Position numbers and translations under genes: made by a program. This document shows positions 1,273 to 19,550 of a stretch of 20,113 nucleotides of DNA, in pieces. The notes beneath the pieces were generated by a model. That model worked only from the letters and a program-made list of their open reading frames with translations. It was not told the origin of the DNA and did no database searches. Position 1 is the stretch's first letter, and each line of letters starts with the position of its first letter. Source of the stretch: a virus; IMG/VR virus record IMGVR_UViG_3300036851_000290, positions 1 to 20,113 of that record; one strand, written 5' to 3'.

Positions 1273-1332
1273 ATGGTGGGGGCGTCGGACGAGGACACGG
1301 CGTCCCCATCTTCCCAGGCGGCCGATGCGTGA
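1273..1332 (+). CDS. 19-codon coupling mini-ORF
   Basis: ATG at 1273 lies two bases after the previous TAA, and its TGA at 1330-1332 overlaps the GTG start of the replication protein (GTGA, 1329-1332). The peptide is 19 residues, begins MVGASDEDTA and is rich in Ser, Asp and Ala. It bridges the gap between the two genes in the same way as the mini-ORFs at 380, 3374, 5578 and 7142. A coupling role is inferred. Confidence 0.35.
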   Translation: MVGASDEDTASPSSQAADA

Positions 1333-1751
1333 CGTGGGTAGCCATCGATGATGGTTTTGTCGAGCATCGCAAGGTGGACGGGCTCAGTGACCGATCCTTT
1401 CGCCTACACATCGCCGCGCTCTGCTACTGCGGACGCAACCTCACCGATGGAGTCCTCACGGAGCGGGCGGTCAAAGTCGTGAGGGCGATCGTCTCAGGTT
1501 CGCCCCGTCATGTCCGCGAGCTTGCGGCTGTTGGCCTCTGGCTGGACACGGACGATGGCTATCAAGTGAAGGATTACCTGGAATACAACCCCTCGGCTGA
1601 GCAGGTAATCGAGCGGCGCGAGAAGGCGAAGGAAAGGATGCGTCGTTCGCGCGAACGTGCGAGCGAACATGCGGGAGAAGTTCGCAAGCCCCCTCCCCTC
1701 CCCTCCCCTAAAAGTCTAAAACCAAAGGCCTTTCGCGGCGAGGCGGCCTGA
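1329..1751 (+). CDS. Phage replication initiation / replisome-organiser-like protein
   Basis: GTG at 1329 overlaps the stop of the upstream mini-ORF. The product has 140 residues. Its first ~90 residues (MTWVAIDDGFVEHRKVDGLS, AALCYCGRNLTDGVL, VGLWLDTDDGYQVKDYLEYN) match the winged-helix-like replication protein I know from many actinobacterial phages and prophages, which is taken to bind the phage origin and recruit helicase. After the conserved DYLEYNPS comes a basic helix (REKAKERMRRSRERA) and a Pro/Lys-rich low-complexity tail. That tail DNA carries origin-like repeats (1645-1726), as in lambda O. The stop shares one base with the next ATG (TGATG). The family call is confident; the mechanism is inferred. 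Confidence 0.75.
   Translation: MTWVAIDDGFVEHRKVDGLSDRSFRLHIAALCYCGRNLTDGVLTERAVKVVRAIVSGSPRHVRELAAVGLWLDTDDGYQVKDYLEYNPSAEQVIERREKAKERMRRSRERASEHAGEVRKPPPLPSPKSLKPKAFRGEAA
1645..1726 (+). other. Candidate replication origin inside the replication gene
   Basis: Four copies of the hexamer GCGAAC lie within 41 bases. They are at 1645-1650 (inverted), 1651-1656, 1663-1668 and 1680-1685 (inverted). The first two form a perfect 12-bp palindrome GTTCGCGCGAAC. The two direct copies extend to tandem 12-mers (GCGAACGTGCGA, GCGAACATGCGG). Next come four tandem CCCCT units (1690-1709), which put AGGGG repeats able to form a G-quadruplex on the other strand, and then an AT-rich stretch (1709-1726, TAAAAGTCTAAAACCAAA). 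Iterons followed by an unwinding element inside the initiator gene is the layout of lambdoid origins. The function is inferred. Confidence 0.5.
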
Positions 1752-2107
1752 TGAGCGACCGCGCAGGCCCAGGCAAACGGCCCAGATATGTCAAAGAGGA
1801 CTTCAAAACCGTTGCCTCCAAGATCCGCTACGACCTCACGGCGGCGCAGGCGAAGCTGACCGAACTGATGAGGATGCTCGCCTCGATAGAGCTTCCGACG
1901 AAGGAAACACCCTTCAACGAGGAACGGGCGCTCGCGTTCGTTCGGCGCACGGCCCCGTACTACACGGACTCGTCGCTCGGCGAGGAGCTGACCGACATGG
2001 GAGCCGATGAGGATTTCGTGAGGCGGGCACTTCTCGTTGCGGCGGATGTTCGGATCGTGGACCGGGCTCAGGCCGAGGTGGAGGGGTACGGGGGGGCCGA
2101 GCGGTGA
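1751..2107 (+). CDS. Hypothetical protein between replication gene and integrase
   Basis: ATG at 1751 shares its A with the upstream TGA, and the stop overlaps the integrase GTG (GTGA, 2104-2107). The product has 118 residues: a basic N-terminus (MSDRAGPGKRPRYVKEDFKT), a helical middle (AAQAKLTELMRMLASIE) and an acidic C-terminal half (LGEELTDMGADEDFVRRALL). No enzymatic motif is visible. Its place right after the replication initiator would suit a helicase-loader or accessory replication role, but the sequence does not show this. Confidence 0.7.
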   Translation: MSDRAGPGKRPRYVKEDFKTVASKIRYDLTAAQAKLTELMRMLASIELPTKETPFNEERALAFVRRTAPYYTDSSLGEELTDMGADEDFVRRALLVAADVRIVDRAQAEVEGYGGAER

Positions 2108-3054
2108 GCGTCGCCGTAGACTACGACCCCCTGCGCGACAAGAACTACCAGTCCACCGGGCTGGGTGAGCCGATCGTCAACTACCTGGCCCGGAAGACGA
2201 ATCAGGGACGGCGGCCAAGAACCCTTGACGACAAGGAGCGCTACCTCGCGTCTCTGGCACAGACGTTTCCGTCGAAGCGGCTCGAGGACATCACCTGGGC
2301 CGACATCGACCATTGGATCGCGTTGCAACCGGAGCGGTCACGCCGGCATCGCGCATCGCATGTTCGGGACTTCTTCCGCTGGGCTACTCGCTTCGAGCTC
2401 ATCGACAAGAACCCGATGGACAAACTCGACCCGATCGCGCGTCCGAGCCAGAAGGTCTACGACATCTTCAACGACGCCGAGGTCAAGGCGCTCTGCGATC
2501 TGCCCTCGGTCGACGGTGTGCTGATGCAGATTCTCTTCGACGCCGGCCTGCGGAAGTCCGAGGCGATAGCGCTCCAACTGGCCCGGTTCCGGTTCGTCTC
2601 GACCCTCACGGCCCCGAACGGGGAGATCGTCATCCTCGGCGGCAAGGGGGCGAAGGACCGGGTCGTGCCGATGACCGCGACGCTTGAGCAGCGGGTCGCG
2701 GAGTTCCAACTTACGGAGGGATTGCAGACCAGCGACTATCTCTGGTATCGGGTGCGCTCCTCCGGGCGGGTGTGGCGGCACACCTATCGCGACAAGCCCG
2801 TTCAGGAGACGACGTTCGTACGCTGGTGGCAGCGCTGTATCGAGGACAGCGGAGTCAGGGCGCGGAACCCGCACATGACCCGCCACACGTTTGCTACGCG
2901 GTGGCTCAGGCGGGGTGGCCGGCTGGAAACCCTCTCGATGGTGATGGGCCACTCCTCGATCAAGACGACCTTCGACATGTACGGGCACCTGGACAACCGG
3001 GACGTCGCCCGCGACCTCGCCCTCGTGGAGCAAAGCGTCCTCGCCCAACAGTGA
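2104..3054 (+). CDS. int: Tyrosine recombinase / phage integrase
   Basis: GTG at 2104 overlaps the previous stop. The 316-residue product has the two-domain build of XerC/D-type tyrosine recombinases. A SAM-like core-binding domain spans about residues 20-108 (YLARKTNQGRRPRTLDDKER through FFRWATRFELIDKNPMDKL). The catalytic domain follows, with all key residues visible: R150 (DAGLRKSE), K181 or K184 (GGKGAKDR), H257 and R260 (HMTRH), H283 (MGHSS) and the nucleophile Y293 (FDMYGH). It would integrate and excise the phage at att sites. No AP2-like arm-binding domain is seen, so it is of the simple type. A tRNA 3'-end mimic, the expected attP core, begins 23 bases after the stop. Confidence 0.95.
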   Translation: MSVAVDYDPLRDKNYQSTGLGEPIVNYLARKTNQGRRPRTLDDKERYLASLAQTFPSKRLEDITWADIDHWIALQPERSRRHRASHVRDFFRWATRFELIDKNPMDKLDPIARPSQKVYDIFNDAEVKALCDLPSVDGVLMQILFDAGLRKSEAIALQLARFRFVSTLTAPNGEIVILGGKGAKDRVVPMTATLEQRVAEFQLTEGLQTSDYLWYRVRSSGRVWRHTYRDKPVQETTFVRWWQRCIEDSGVRARNPHMTRHTFATRWLRRGGRLETLSMVMGHSSIKTTFDMYGHLDNRDVARDLALVEQSVLAQQ

Positions 3055-3377
3055 AAACTCCCTGCATATCCGCTATAGGAGGCGCCGAGCGGATTCGAAC
3101 CGCTGTAAGCGTCCCCGCCGACGTTCGCGTTGTAGCTCCGGTCGGCGTTCATCAGACGAAGCATTGGCGGAGTCTTCGTCTTGAAGCGATTGAGCGCGCG
3201 GATTTCCGGTGTGAGCGTTGTAACTGGGCCTCAGACGACTGGTGGGGCCATGGGCTCAAGGTTCATCACCTGACGTACGAGCGGGCGTTCGCGGAACTCT
3301 TGGAGGACGTGGAGGTTCTTTGTTCGGGCTGCCACGCGGCGGCTCACGTCGAACCGTGCGAGGACGATCTCGCGTGA
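3051..3377 (+). CDS. HNH endonuclease whose start overlaps the candidate attP
   Basis: GTG at 3051 overlaps the integrase stop (GTGA) and is the only plausible start; no ATG, GTG or TTG occurs in frame between it and the nuclease domain. The 108-residue product has an odd N-terminus in which residues about 9-18 (IGGAERIRTA) are the translation of a tRNA-like stretch. The HNH domain fills residues 38-100: C54xxC57 (CERC), HH at 72-73 (KVHHLTYERAF), then C91xxC94-H95 (CSGCH) and H99. HNH proteins nick or cut DNA and in phages often assist packaging or act as homing enzymes. Integration at the attP would separate the start from the body. Residues 1-35 may not be part of the folded enzyme. Confidence 0.7.
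   Translation: MKTPCISAIGGAERIRTAVSVPADVRVVAPVGVHQTKHWRSLRLEAIERADFRCERCNWASDDWWGHGLKVHHLTYERAFAELLEDVEVLCSGCHAAAHVEPCEDDLA
3077..3104 (-). other. attP: Candidate attP core: tRNA T-arm and acceptor 3' end
   Basis: Read on the - strand, this stretch is a tRNA 3' end. A 5-bp T-stem AGCGG/CCGCT (3100-3104 with 3088-3092) encloses the loop TTCGAAT. Then follow a seven-base acceptor strand CGGCGCC (3087-3081), discriminator T (3080) and CC. The last base is T where CCA would have A. No D-arm or anticodon arm precedes it, so this is not a tRNA gene. A tRNA 3' end next to an integrase gene is the classic attP core of phages that integrate into tRNA genes. U73 and a CGGCGCC acceptor suit tRNA-Cys or tRNA-Gly as host target (inference). 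Confidence 0.7.
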
Positions 3378-7180: not shown

Positions 7181-7383
7181 GCGACCTTACACAAGCAACG
7201 AACCGAGAACTGGCCGAGGCGGCGGCAGAAGCGATGTATTACCCCGACCACGACACGGCGCTGGTGTTCGTCATCGAGAGGTTTGTTCTGCCGCCGCAAC
7301 GGGACTCTTACACCGCTGAGGAAATGGCCGACTACATCGAAGCTGCCTTGGGGGCGGCTCAGCGGCGGTCGTGGAGTATCTGA
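7177..7383 (+). CDS. Small acidic protein, last gene of the + strand run
   Basis: GTG at 7177 follows a GGGGGCGG tract and overlaps the mini-ORF stop. The 68-residue product starts MSDLTQATNRELAEAAAEAM and contains HDTALVFVIERFVLPPQRDS and YTAEEMADYIEAALGAAQ. It is acidic and largely helical, and no motif is recognised. Its 3' end overlaps by 25 bases, tail to tail, the last gene of the - strand cassette. It marks the end of the long co-directional chain. Confidence 0.65.
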   Translation: MSDLTQATNRELAEAAAEAMYYPDHDTALVFVIERFVLPPQRDSYTAEEMADYIEAALGAAQRRSWSI

Positions 7384-7532
7384 TGCACGCGCCCGTGGCT
7401 CAGCCCGGCGGCGGCGGCGATGGCTCGGATGGAGTGGCCGGCCTCGTGCGCGCGGCGAATCTCTTGGTTGCGCCGCTGACTCGCCGCACTTGCGGCAGTG
7501 GTCGCGCGGCGCACGCTCGCCAACGAACTCAT
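7359..7532 (-). CDS. Small helix-turn-helix DNA-binding protein
   Basis: On the - strand, ATG at 7532 overlaps the stop of its upstream partner (ATGA, 7532-7529), so the two are translated together. The product has 57 residues: an Ala/Ser-rich N-terminus (MSSLASVRRATTAASAASQR) and then a clear helix-turn-helix, residues about 34-53 (SIRAIAAAAGLSHGRVHQIL), preceded by NQEIRRAHEAGH. Small HTH proteins of this kind usually act as repressors or excision/control factors. It is encoded against all neighbours and next to a promoter with inverted repeats, so it could be the phage's own regulator (inference). It would need to dimerise to bind those repeats. Confidence 0.75.
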   Translation of the reverse strand: MSSLASVRRATTAASAASQRRNQEIRRAHEAGHSIRAIAAAAGLSHGRVHQILHDRR

Positions 7533-7726
7533 TTGGATGCGAGCCGTCGCAGAAGCTGGGCGTCCCGCAGCCACCCCGCCCTGGACTCGGGCGTCCGGCG
7601 CGCGGCTGGCATCAGCTTCGAGTCGTCCCGACGCGCGTTGCGCTCGAGATCATCGGCGAAGCGCAGCATCTCCTCGCGGTCGCCTCGCGCGATCACTCTG
7701 GATGTGGCGGCGCTCCAAACCTCCAT
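7529..7726 (-). CDS. 65-aa basic/acidic protein, first gene of the reverse cassette
   Basis: ATG at 7726 on the - strand lies seven bases after a consensus -10 box, so the transcript probably starts at or next to the start codon and has no leader. A longer reading to 7762 would run through the promoter and is rejected. The product has 65 residues: MEVWSAATSRVIARGDREEM, then LRFADDLERNARRDDSKLMP and a tail with RAGWLRDAQLLRRLASK. It is helical, highly charged and without a known motif. Pairing with an HTH gene could mean a regulator pair or a toxin-antitoxin-like pair, but nothing in the sequence proves either. Confidence 0.7.
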   Translation of the reverse strand: MEVWSAATSRVIARGDREEMLRFADDLERNARRDDSKLMPAARRTPESRAGWLRDAQLLRRLASK

Positions 7727-7733
7727 GCCAACC

Positions 7734-7762
7734 AGTATAGCAGACTGGACAGCCGTTGTCAA
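7734..7762 (-). promoter_or_regulatory. Sigma-70-type promoter for a leaderless reverse transcript
   Basis: On the - strand the sequence holds a perfect -35 box TTGACA (7762-7757), a 17-base spacer, and a -10 box TATACT (7739-7734). The ATG of the first cassette gene follows after seven bases (7726). The start of transcription is therefore expected within a base or two of the ATG. No Shine-Dalgarno lies between. This is the best promoter match I found in the window. Confidence 0.85.
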
Positions 7763-7773
7763 GTCCAGTGGAC
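7746..7773. promoter_or_regulatory. Operator-like inverted repeats over the reverse promoter
   Basis: Three copies of the half-site TGGAC/GTCCA occur within 28 bases. TGGAC at 7746-7750 and GTCCA at 7763-7767 flank the -35 box. GTCCA at 7763-7767 and TGGAC at 7769-7773 make the 11-bp palindrome GTCCAGTGGAC, touching the -35 box on its upstream side. A dimeric repressor bound here would block the promoter and could also touch transcription toward the methyltransferase gene starting at 7790. The binding protein is inferred to be the cassette's HTH protein. Confidence 0.55.
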
Positions 7774-7789
7774 AAGCCGGGGCCGCTGC

Positions 7790-8947
7790 GTGACGGGCGT
7801 CACTCCCCCGAGAGAGCCGTATGTGCAGGATGCGGATTTCACGCTCTACGTAGGCGATGTGCGGGAAGTGCTGGCCGGGTTGCCGGATGAGAGCGTGCAG
7901 TGTGTCGTGACGAGCCCGCCGTACTGGGGCTTGCGCGACTACGGCACCGAGGGACAGCTCGGCCTCGAGCCGACGCCTGAGCTTTACGTCGAGAACATGG
8001 TCGCCGTCTTCCGCGAGGTGCGGCGGGTGCTGCGGCGGGACGGGACCTGCTGGTTGAACATCGGGGACAGTTACGTGGCTCAGCCCTCCGGCTCAAAGAC
8101 GATCGAATCAAAGCTTGCTAAGAGTGGCCTGCACTTCTCAAGGGAGACACTAAATGACGCGCACACAAGGGCAAGACTTGAACAGGCAAATGCAGTTCGT
8201 GGTCAATGGGCTCCACCTCCTGGTCTCCTTCCCAAGAACCTTGTCGGCATCCCCTGGCGTCTCGCCTTCGCCCTGCAAGCAGACGGCTGGTATCTCCGCT
8301 CGGAGATCATCTGGGCGAAGCCGAATCCGATGCCGGAGTCGGTGACGGACCGGCCGACCAAGAGCCATGAGCAGGTGTTTCTGCTGACGCGGAGCAAGTC
8401 GTATTTCTATGACGCCGAGGCGGTGCGGGAGGCGTTCGCGCCCGCGAGCGAGGAGCGCTACCGCTACGCCTTCGGTGGCAAGAAAGCCGAAGATCTCCAC
8501 CGGCAAGATGCGGCCGGACCGGGCGGGAACCGCACTGCCCCGATCGGCAAGCGCACGTTTCCCGGTATGCCGCCCGAGGCCGACCGCGGTCCGGATGGTC
8601 GGCGCGTCACAACCGTTCAGGGCGGCGAAGGATCACTGCAGCACCGCGACGGCGAACGCTGGCCCAACGCCGGCCGCAACCTCCGCTCCGTCTGGGAGCT
8701 CCCCACCGAGCCGTTTCCCGAAGCGCATTTCGCCACCTATCCACAGGCGTTGGTGGAGCGGTGTATCAAGGCGGGGACGAGGCTCGGCGACGTTGTGATG
8801 GACCCCTTCGGCGGGAGTGGAACGACAGCCCTGGTCGCGCGCCGCCTCGGCCGCAAGTCACTTCTCATCGAGCTCAACCCGGACTACGCCGAAATGTCGG
8901 CGCGGCGGTTGTCGCAGTTGTCGTTGCTTGCGGAGCCTGCGGCTTGA
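7790..8947 (+). CDS. Site-specific DNA methyltransferase (amino-methyltransferase, N4-C or N6-A)
   Basis: GTG at 7790 is the likely start; the frame is open further upstream, but that stretch is occupied by the reverse cassette. The 385-residue product has catalytic motif IV early (TSPPYWGLRDYG, residues 41-52) and the AdoMet-binding motif I late (DPFGGSGTTALVARR, 338-352), followed by LLIELNPDYAEMSARRL. This circularly permuted order is that of the beta class. Between them lie KPNPMPESVTDRPTKSHEQV and a variable region (about 215-300) that could recognise the target. SPPYW alone does not separate N4-cytosine from N6-adenine activity. No nuclease partner is present, so it is an orphan enzyme that could shield phage DNA from host restriction or affect regulation. 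Confidence 0.92.
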   Translation: MTGVTPPREPYVQDADFTLYVGDVREVLAGLPDESVQCVVTSPPYWGLRDYGTEGQLGLEPTPELYVENMVAVFREVRRVLRRDGTCWLNIGDSYVAQPSGSKTIESKLAKSGLHFSRETLNDAHTRARLEQANAVRGQWAPPPGLLPKNLVGIPWRLAFALQADGWYLRSEIIWAKPNPMPESVTDRPTKSHEQVFLLTRSKSYFYDAEAVREAFAPASEERYRYAFGGKKAEDLHRQDAAGPGGNRTAPIGKRTFPGMPPEADRGPDGRRVTTVQGGEGSLQHRDGERWPNAGRNLRSVWELPTEPFPEAHFATYPQALVERCIKAGTRLGDVVMDPFGGSGTTALVARRLGRKSLLIELNPDYAEMSARRLSQLSLLAEPAA

Positions 8948-18887: not shown

Positions 18888-19550
18888 ATGGTGAAGGGCT
18901 CGAGGAAGTACTCGGTAGACACTGGGTTGGCGGGACGACTGTACGCCGAAGGCGCGAGCCTGACCGAGCTAGCAGAGAGATTTCACGTCTCAATGGCCAG
19001 CTTGCGAAGGTATCTCATTGCTGATGGCGTACAGATGCGTCCCGCCGCCCAGAGTGTGAGGCTCCGAGGCGGTTACAGCCATCCCCCGGCGGTTCGCGCC
19101 AGAATCTCCGCAGCAAGAAAAGAGGCGTTGCGTCATGCTCCTATGCCTTCCACGAAGGGTAGGACATGGGACCCCGAGCAACGGCGCAAGCAGATGCAGA
19201 TTCGACGCTCAGCCGAATTCGGCCGAAAGATGGCCGACCAGAAGCGTGGTGCGAAGTCCCATTTCTGGCGCGGTGGCGTTTCTGGCGAAGAAGACTTGCG
19301 TATGCACGGCCGTGCCTGGAAGCAGCGCCGCCGCGAGTGTTACCAGCGCGACAGTTGGGCGTGCCAGGATTGCGGAGTCAACTGTGTTAACGGTGCTCGC
19401 GCCAAAGAGCATCCAAGGCGAAAGATCCAAGCGCACCACGTCATCCCTCGTCGGCTTGGTGGCACCGACGAACTGGACAATCTTGTGACGCTCTGTGCGT
19501 CCTGTCACCGAAGTCGTGAGTATCGGTTCGCCGATGCTCTGATTGCGTAA
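18888..19550 (+). CDS. Free-standing HNH homing-type endonuclease with HTH
   Basis: ATG at 18888 has no ribosome site and seems to begin a leaderless transcript. The 220-residue product has an N-terminal helix-turn-helix (about 24-43, SLTELAERFHVSMASLRRYL) and a basic linker with TKGRTWDPEQRRKQMQIRRS, like nuclease-associated DNA-binding modules. A KSHFWRGG segment follows, typical of phage HNH homing enzymes, and then the HNH domain (about 144-210). This shows C159xxC162, HH at 183-184 (QAHHVIPRRLGGTDELDNLV) and C203xxC206-H207. Such enzymes cut cognate DNA lacking the insert and spread by repair. It separates the capsid gene from the next head gene, a typical invasion site. No intron core was recognised around it. 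Confidence 0.85.
   Translation: MVKGSRKYSVDTGLAGRLYAEGASLTELAERFHVSMASLRRYLIADGVQMRPAAQSVRLRGGYSHPPAVRARISAARKEALRHAPMPSTKGRTWDPEQRRKQMQIRRSAEFGRKMADQKRGAKSHFWRGGVSGEEDLRMHGRAWKQRRRECYQRDSWACQDCGVNCVNGARAKEHPRRKIQAHHVIPRRLGGTDELDNLVTLCASCHRSREYRFADALIA

Follow-up and report, generated by a model that had tools for sequence, protein, structure and literature searches.

A likely attachment site of 31 nt, corresponding to the 3′ end of a bacterial tRNA-Cys gene, lies where the integrase gene of a soil-type phage meets an open reading frame (ORF) for an HNH nuclease. The window, i.e., the whole stretch of DNA analysed, is 20,113 bases long. We put at roughly even odds the reading that a temperate phage here has its integration module, with an ordinary tRNA-Cys attP at the integrase-HNH junction, and that integration would passively detach the HNH frame from the rep-int operon. 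Nothing indicates selection for a switch.

The junction belongs to a run of overlapping genes, rep - orf1751 - int - HNH, joined by GTGA and TGATG overlaps, in which the HNH ORF is the last member and the stop codon of rep (TGA) overlaps ATG 1751 (Table 1). Genes for terL, portal and major capsid proteins occur further along the window. A scan for sigma-70 promoters and terminators gave nothing exceeding chance, and the RNA fold around the junction is ordinary (z -0.98).

Table 1. Coordinates of the features discussed, numbered from the first base of the window.
Feature	Position	Strand	Basis or remark
Window	20,113 bases		IMG/VR virus record
Replication initiation-like (Rep-like) gene, opens the overlapping run	1329..1751	+	phrog_2447, E 2.7e-28
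118-aa gene of no assigned function	1751..2107	+	ORF list; stop overlaps integrase start (GTGA)
Tyrosine integrase, XerC/D-like	2104..3054	+	PF00589, E 5.3e-20; TIGR02224 XerC over residues 38-302, E 1.4e-29; XerA alignment
GTG, candidate HNH start	3051..3053	+	Sequence and in-frame start scan; overlaps integrase stop TGA 3052-3054
ORF holding the HNH domain, 108 aa	3051..3377	+	phrog_119, E 5.7e-9 over residues 35-100; homologue alignments; codon scores
attP core, 31 nt, AGGAGGCGCCGAGCGGATTCGAACCGCTGTA	3077-3107	- (tRNA sense)	3′ part of tRNA-Cys(GCA) gene
T-stem inverted repeat AGCGG-ATTCGAA-CCGCT	3088..3104		Sequence
HNH nuclease domain	3153..3350	+	Alignments to eight plasmid/phage HNH proteins, residues 34-99
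Second HNH gene, immediately following that for the major capsid protein	18888-19547		phrog_8446, E 2.4e-22; weak N-terminal resolvase-like HTH match

The core contains a T-arm, an acceptor strand and the discriminator T, followed by CCT. When 84,980 species genomes were scanned, its 27-mer at 3078-3104 was found without mismatch in 39 contigs from bacterial or archaeal genomes. ARAGORN places a tRNA-Cys(GCA) ending at the core in 38 of these, and the remaining contig ends inside the gene. There is no tRNA within the window itself, and the bases to the right of the core lack the anticodon arm present in the genomes. They are not the rest of a tRNA, which identifies the site as an unrecombined attP rather than attL or attR. 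A preliminary description of this DNA had recognised a tRNA-like core at 3077-3104, covering codons 9-18 of the HNH frame. The element is real and somewhat longer, at 3077-3107 (codons 9-19), and its 31 nt are present in full in a second viral contig. Rfam returned only tRNA-like matches on the minus strand, all under the gathering score, and a search of plasmids and phages for DNA resembling the core surroundings gave only partial matches, several of them to other tRNAs.

Judging from sequence, AGCGG and CCGCT are likely the core-binding arms of the integrase around a 7-nt crossover region, ATTCGAA. For tRNA genes, crossover in the T-loop and at the T/acceptor junction has been described (PMC4383910). 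Most matching genomes, which encode CCA, have T ahead of GGAGG, whereas the phage studied here and the second contig have A at that position; the true host may therefore lack an encoded CCA. A V-loop end of TAC and no encoded CCA may point to an actinobacterial host.

The sole other viral contig with the core (L002; IMGVR_UViG_3300005529_000071) has exactly these 31 nt in common with the phage, and the two are only 49%, 37% and 39% identical in terL, portal and capsid proteins, respectively. Preservation of the site letter for letter despite this genome divergence is strong evidence that it is functional. A short ORF, truncated at the contig end, stops 37 nt before the L002 core and resembles the C-terminus of an integrase; no integrase is detectable in the L002 record, as expected if only the last codons are present. 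The gene after the L002 core is not an HNH gene; it is unrelated and has its own ATG 53 nt past the core.

Searches of viral contigs for lysogens or close relatives, using the integrase, the HNH protein and the portal protein, found none. The capsid search found a further contig (L043; IMGVR_UViG_3300036851_000320), a fragment without an integrase or HNH match, and a terL profile search recovered both L002 and L043 and, beyond them, a single remote contig. These two are the only clear relatives found in IMG/VR, with 37-70% identity in terL, portal and capsid proteins, and together with the phage studied here they make up a small group of phages, apparently undescribed. Among Acidobacteria (the phylum of L030), none of 396 genomes has the core plus GTA, and in Armatimonadota (the phylum of L038) all matches to the terL profile were remote and partial, none stronger than E 2e-41. 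In all, no host or lysogen was found across the viral contigs, the 84,980-genome core scan, and the Acidobacteria and Armatimonadota searches.

The integrase is intact and XerC/D-like throughout, its catalytic residues (R, K, HxxR, H and Y) are recognisable, and its stop codon lies 22 nt before the attP core. As the XerC match begins at residue 38 and the XerA alignment at residue 33, there is no room for a separate N-terminal arm-binding domain, which makes a compact site of ~30 bp between two genes plausible. Arms are dispensable for a XerC/D-like enzyme. We find the identification of 3077-3107 as an attP core beside an intact XerC/D-like integrase convincing, and homology and position suggest that recombination occurs there. 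A direct repeat, AAGCGTCC(T/C)CGCC, flanks the core at 3033-3045 and 3107-3119, with agreement at 12 of 13 positions. It is not claimed here as a site for integrase arm binding, since an equal score was reached at 5 of 300 random window positions.

The HNH domain in the frame is genuine, as alignments with the eight plasmid and phage proteins recover its CxxC, HH, CxxCH and final H motifs. The Pfam HNH profile did not reach its cut-off on this ORF (E 0.015). Residues 1-33 have no counterpart in the homologues. The short stand-alone homologues start 9-22 residues ahead of the aligned domain, and several do so with a K/REYL-type lead-in that is missing here. By codon score, the segment 3153-3374 is clearly coding and 3108-3152 falls at the 4th percentile of coding stretches. 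The score of 3051-3107 is lower than that of any stretch of 19 codons in the well-supported genes of the phage, i.e., non-coding-like, although this low score is no proof of non-translation, as the letters of the core are fixed by the tRNA. Single-sequence AlphaFold2 prediction for the 108-aa ORF yielded no usable model (pLDDT 37). An antisense ORF at 2802-3164 (peptide NADRSYNANVGG) has no family match. Read on the minus strand, 3108-3164 gives MLRLMNADRSYNANVGGDAYSG, which has a protein-like look and matches no PHROGs family.

Where might translation of the HNH frame begin? The preliminary description held that it could only be at GTG 3051. The overlap of this codon with the integrase stop (GTGA) is as described, and it is the sole ATG, GTG or TTG between that stop and the domain. 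The exclusivity is too strong a claim: the frame extends without a stop as far upstream as 2772 and has additional GTG codons at 2772, 2826 and 2901, inside the integrase gene. Between the core and the nuclease domain, however, the in-frame scan of 3054-3270 encountered no ATG, GTG or TTG, and only ATA or ATT codons (3066, 3075, 3093 and 3189) stand ahead of the domain. GTG 3051 has no Shine-Dalgarno (SD) motif ahead of it, and its GTGA overlap resembles that at the integrase start. We regard it as a candidate start.

Chance could readily leave a frame open through the core. None of the three sense frames of the core contains a stop, and when random spacers of the phage's composition were substituted the HNH frame remained open as far as the integrase stop in 48% of trials. 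In 26% the frame was open with no ATG, GTG or TTG after the core. At a chance of this size, passive disconnection of the HNH frame needs no selection.

Recombination at 3077-3107 would rebuild the tRNA-Cys gene on the integrase side. On the HNH side it would put host DNA ahead of the core, eliminate GTG 3051 and uncouple the frame from the integrase, and in this respect the crossover geometry given in the preliminary description is right. In excised or replicating DNA the HNH ORF, if read at all, would be the tail of the operon, and the simplest route to its product would be for translation to re-initiate at GTG 3051, giving the protein a leader of ~19 codons derived from att. After integration the ORF would stand behind host DNA, and the geometry suggests that operon coupling is lost as a passive by-product of attP position. 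Counting against this explanation are the non-coding-like codons from 3051 to 3107, the missing SD motif at GTG 3051, and the L002 integrase end, a short ORF without a detectable integrase match.

So, is integration an off-switch? The preliminary description proposed that it would be. As an evolved switch, attP inside the HNH gene would serve to confine synthesis of the nuclease to excised or replicating DNA. We think this improbable, and give as little credence to the narrower proposition that the core of attP also encodes the N-terminal leader of the HNH protein, with integration as a genetic off-switch. The geometry is in its favour, as integration would take away GTG 3051 and the integrase coupling, and there are precedents in BPs-type systems, whose repressor gene contains attP (PMC4557955), and in the conjugation genes of Tn916, which are expressed only after circularisation (PMC11658703). 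However, host DNA could bring a new start. Downstream of the real tRNA-Cys genes, 23 of the 39 flanks present an in-frame ATG, GTG or TTG before a stop (eight with an SD-like motif), a count that serves as a null model, as these 39 genomes are not known hosts. Random sequences of 60-65% GC do so in about 57-60% of cases. With the geometry within chance, translation from 3051 no more than putative, and L002 arranged differently, the claim that integration acts as an off-switch finds no support.

The main rival to passive detachment is that the HNH ORF is a 5′-truncated remnant, from which recombination near attP removed the start and N-terminal residues, and which is hardly or not translated. 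This we consider rather unlikely, yet clearly better placed than a switch. The single ATG/GTG/TTG codon before the domain fits such a loss, as do the absent lead-in of 9-22 residues, the non-homologous residues 1-33, and the codon scores of 3051-3107 and 3108-3152. Against it, the reading frame of the domain is uninterrupted, the residues of the metal-binding and HNH motifs are retained and codon usage is still coding-like; the GTGA overlap also offers a ready start. A start at the rare ATT 3093 would have a different consequence: this codon and the AGGAGG at 3077-3082 upstream of it are both within the core, and such a start would be retained on integration. ATT 3093 is codon 15, and the plasmid homologues from Nostoc and C. 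difficile, which begin 20 residues ahead of the aligned domain, start close to that point. We nevertheless find this the least probable of the readings, and highly improbable, as ATT starts are very rare, the spacing of 10 nt is long, and AGGAGG is merely the complement of the tRNA end. Passive detachment by an ordinary attP remains our preferred, and the most economical, account.

The attP described here has counterparts among the tRNA-gene integration modules of phages and genomic islands. In Islander class J modules, with crossover in the T-loop or at the T/acceptor junction, the core is likewise the 3′ part of a tRNA gene beside an intact tyrosine integrase, and integration restores the tRNA, as it would here (PMC4383910). 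The present case differs from these modules in that the open frame of the next gene crosses the core and the integrase stop is so close to it. In mycobacteriophage BPs, attP also lies within an open frame beside the integrase, that of repressor gene 33, and the phage and prophage versions of the gene differ (PMC4557955). There the repressor loses its 3′ end, as proven experimentally, whereas here integration would alter the 5′ end of a nuclease ORF, with no sign of conservation. A BPs-type switch would be expected to have the lysogeny repressor as the affected gene, attP within a translated gene, and an arrangement conserved among relatives that share the att site. Here the gene encodes an HNH nuclease, the frame is open through the core with non-coding-like codons, and L002 has a different arrangement. 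The case is not of the BPs type, as the gene is no repressor and the arrangement is not conserved.

Among integrative elements, Tn916 similarly has genes past the joined ends that are transcribed only in the circular form; its effect is transcriptional and proven, whereas the one suggested here would act through translational coupling (PMC11658703). Integration of ICEKp1 at tRNA-Asn likewise alters what lies upstream of an element gene (PMC13023037). In ICEKp1, int is affected via host tRNA transcription, whereas in the present phage integration would re-form the tRNA gene on the opposite side, reading convergently with int. Integration-state-dependent expression is already known for repressors (BPs) and for ICEs (Tn916), and the present case would at most work like these.

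An attP inside an operon or gene can make expression follow the integration state without any regulator. If true here, the idea would extend to a nuclease that harms a lysogen or is of no use to it. Because this tRNA-end core is stop-free in all three sense frames, the case shows that chance readily produces overlaps of this kind in phages rich in GC. The analysis supplies a null model for them, in which just under half of frames are open by chance and 59% of real flanks re-supply a start.

Elsewhere in the window, 7283-8944 encodes an N6/N4 DNA methyltransferase (PF01555, E 1.2e-46). Its domain begins only around residue 205, and translation therefore probably starts well inside the frame, downstream of TTG 7283.
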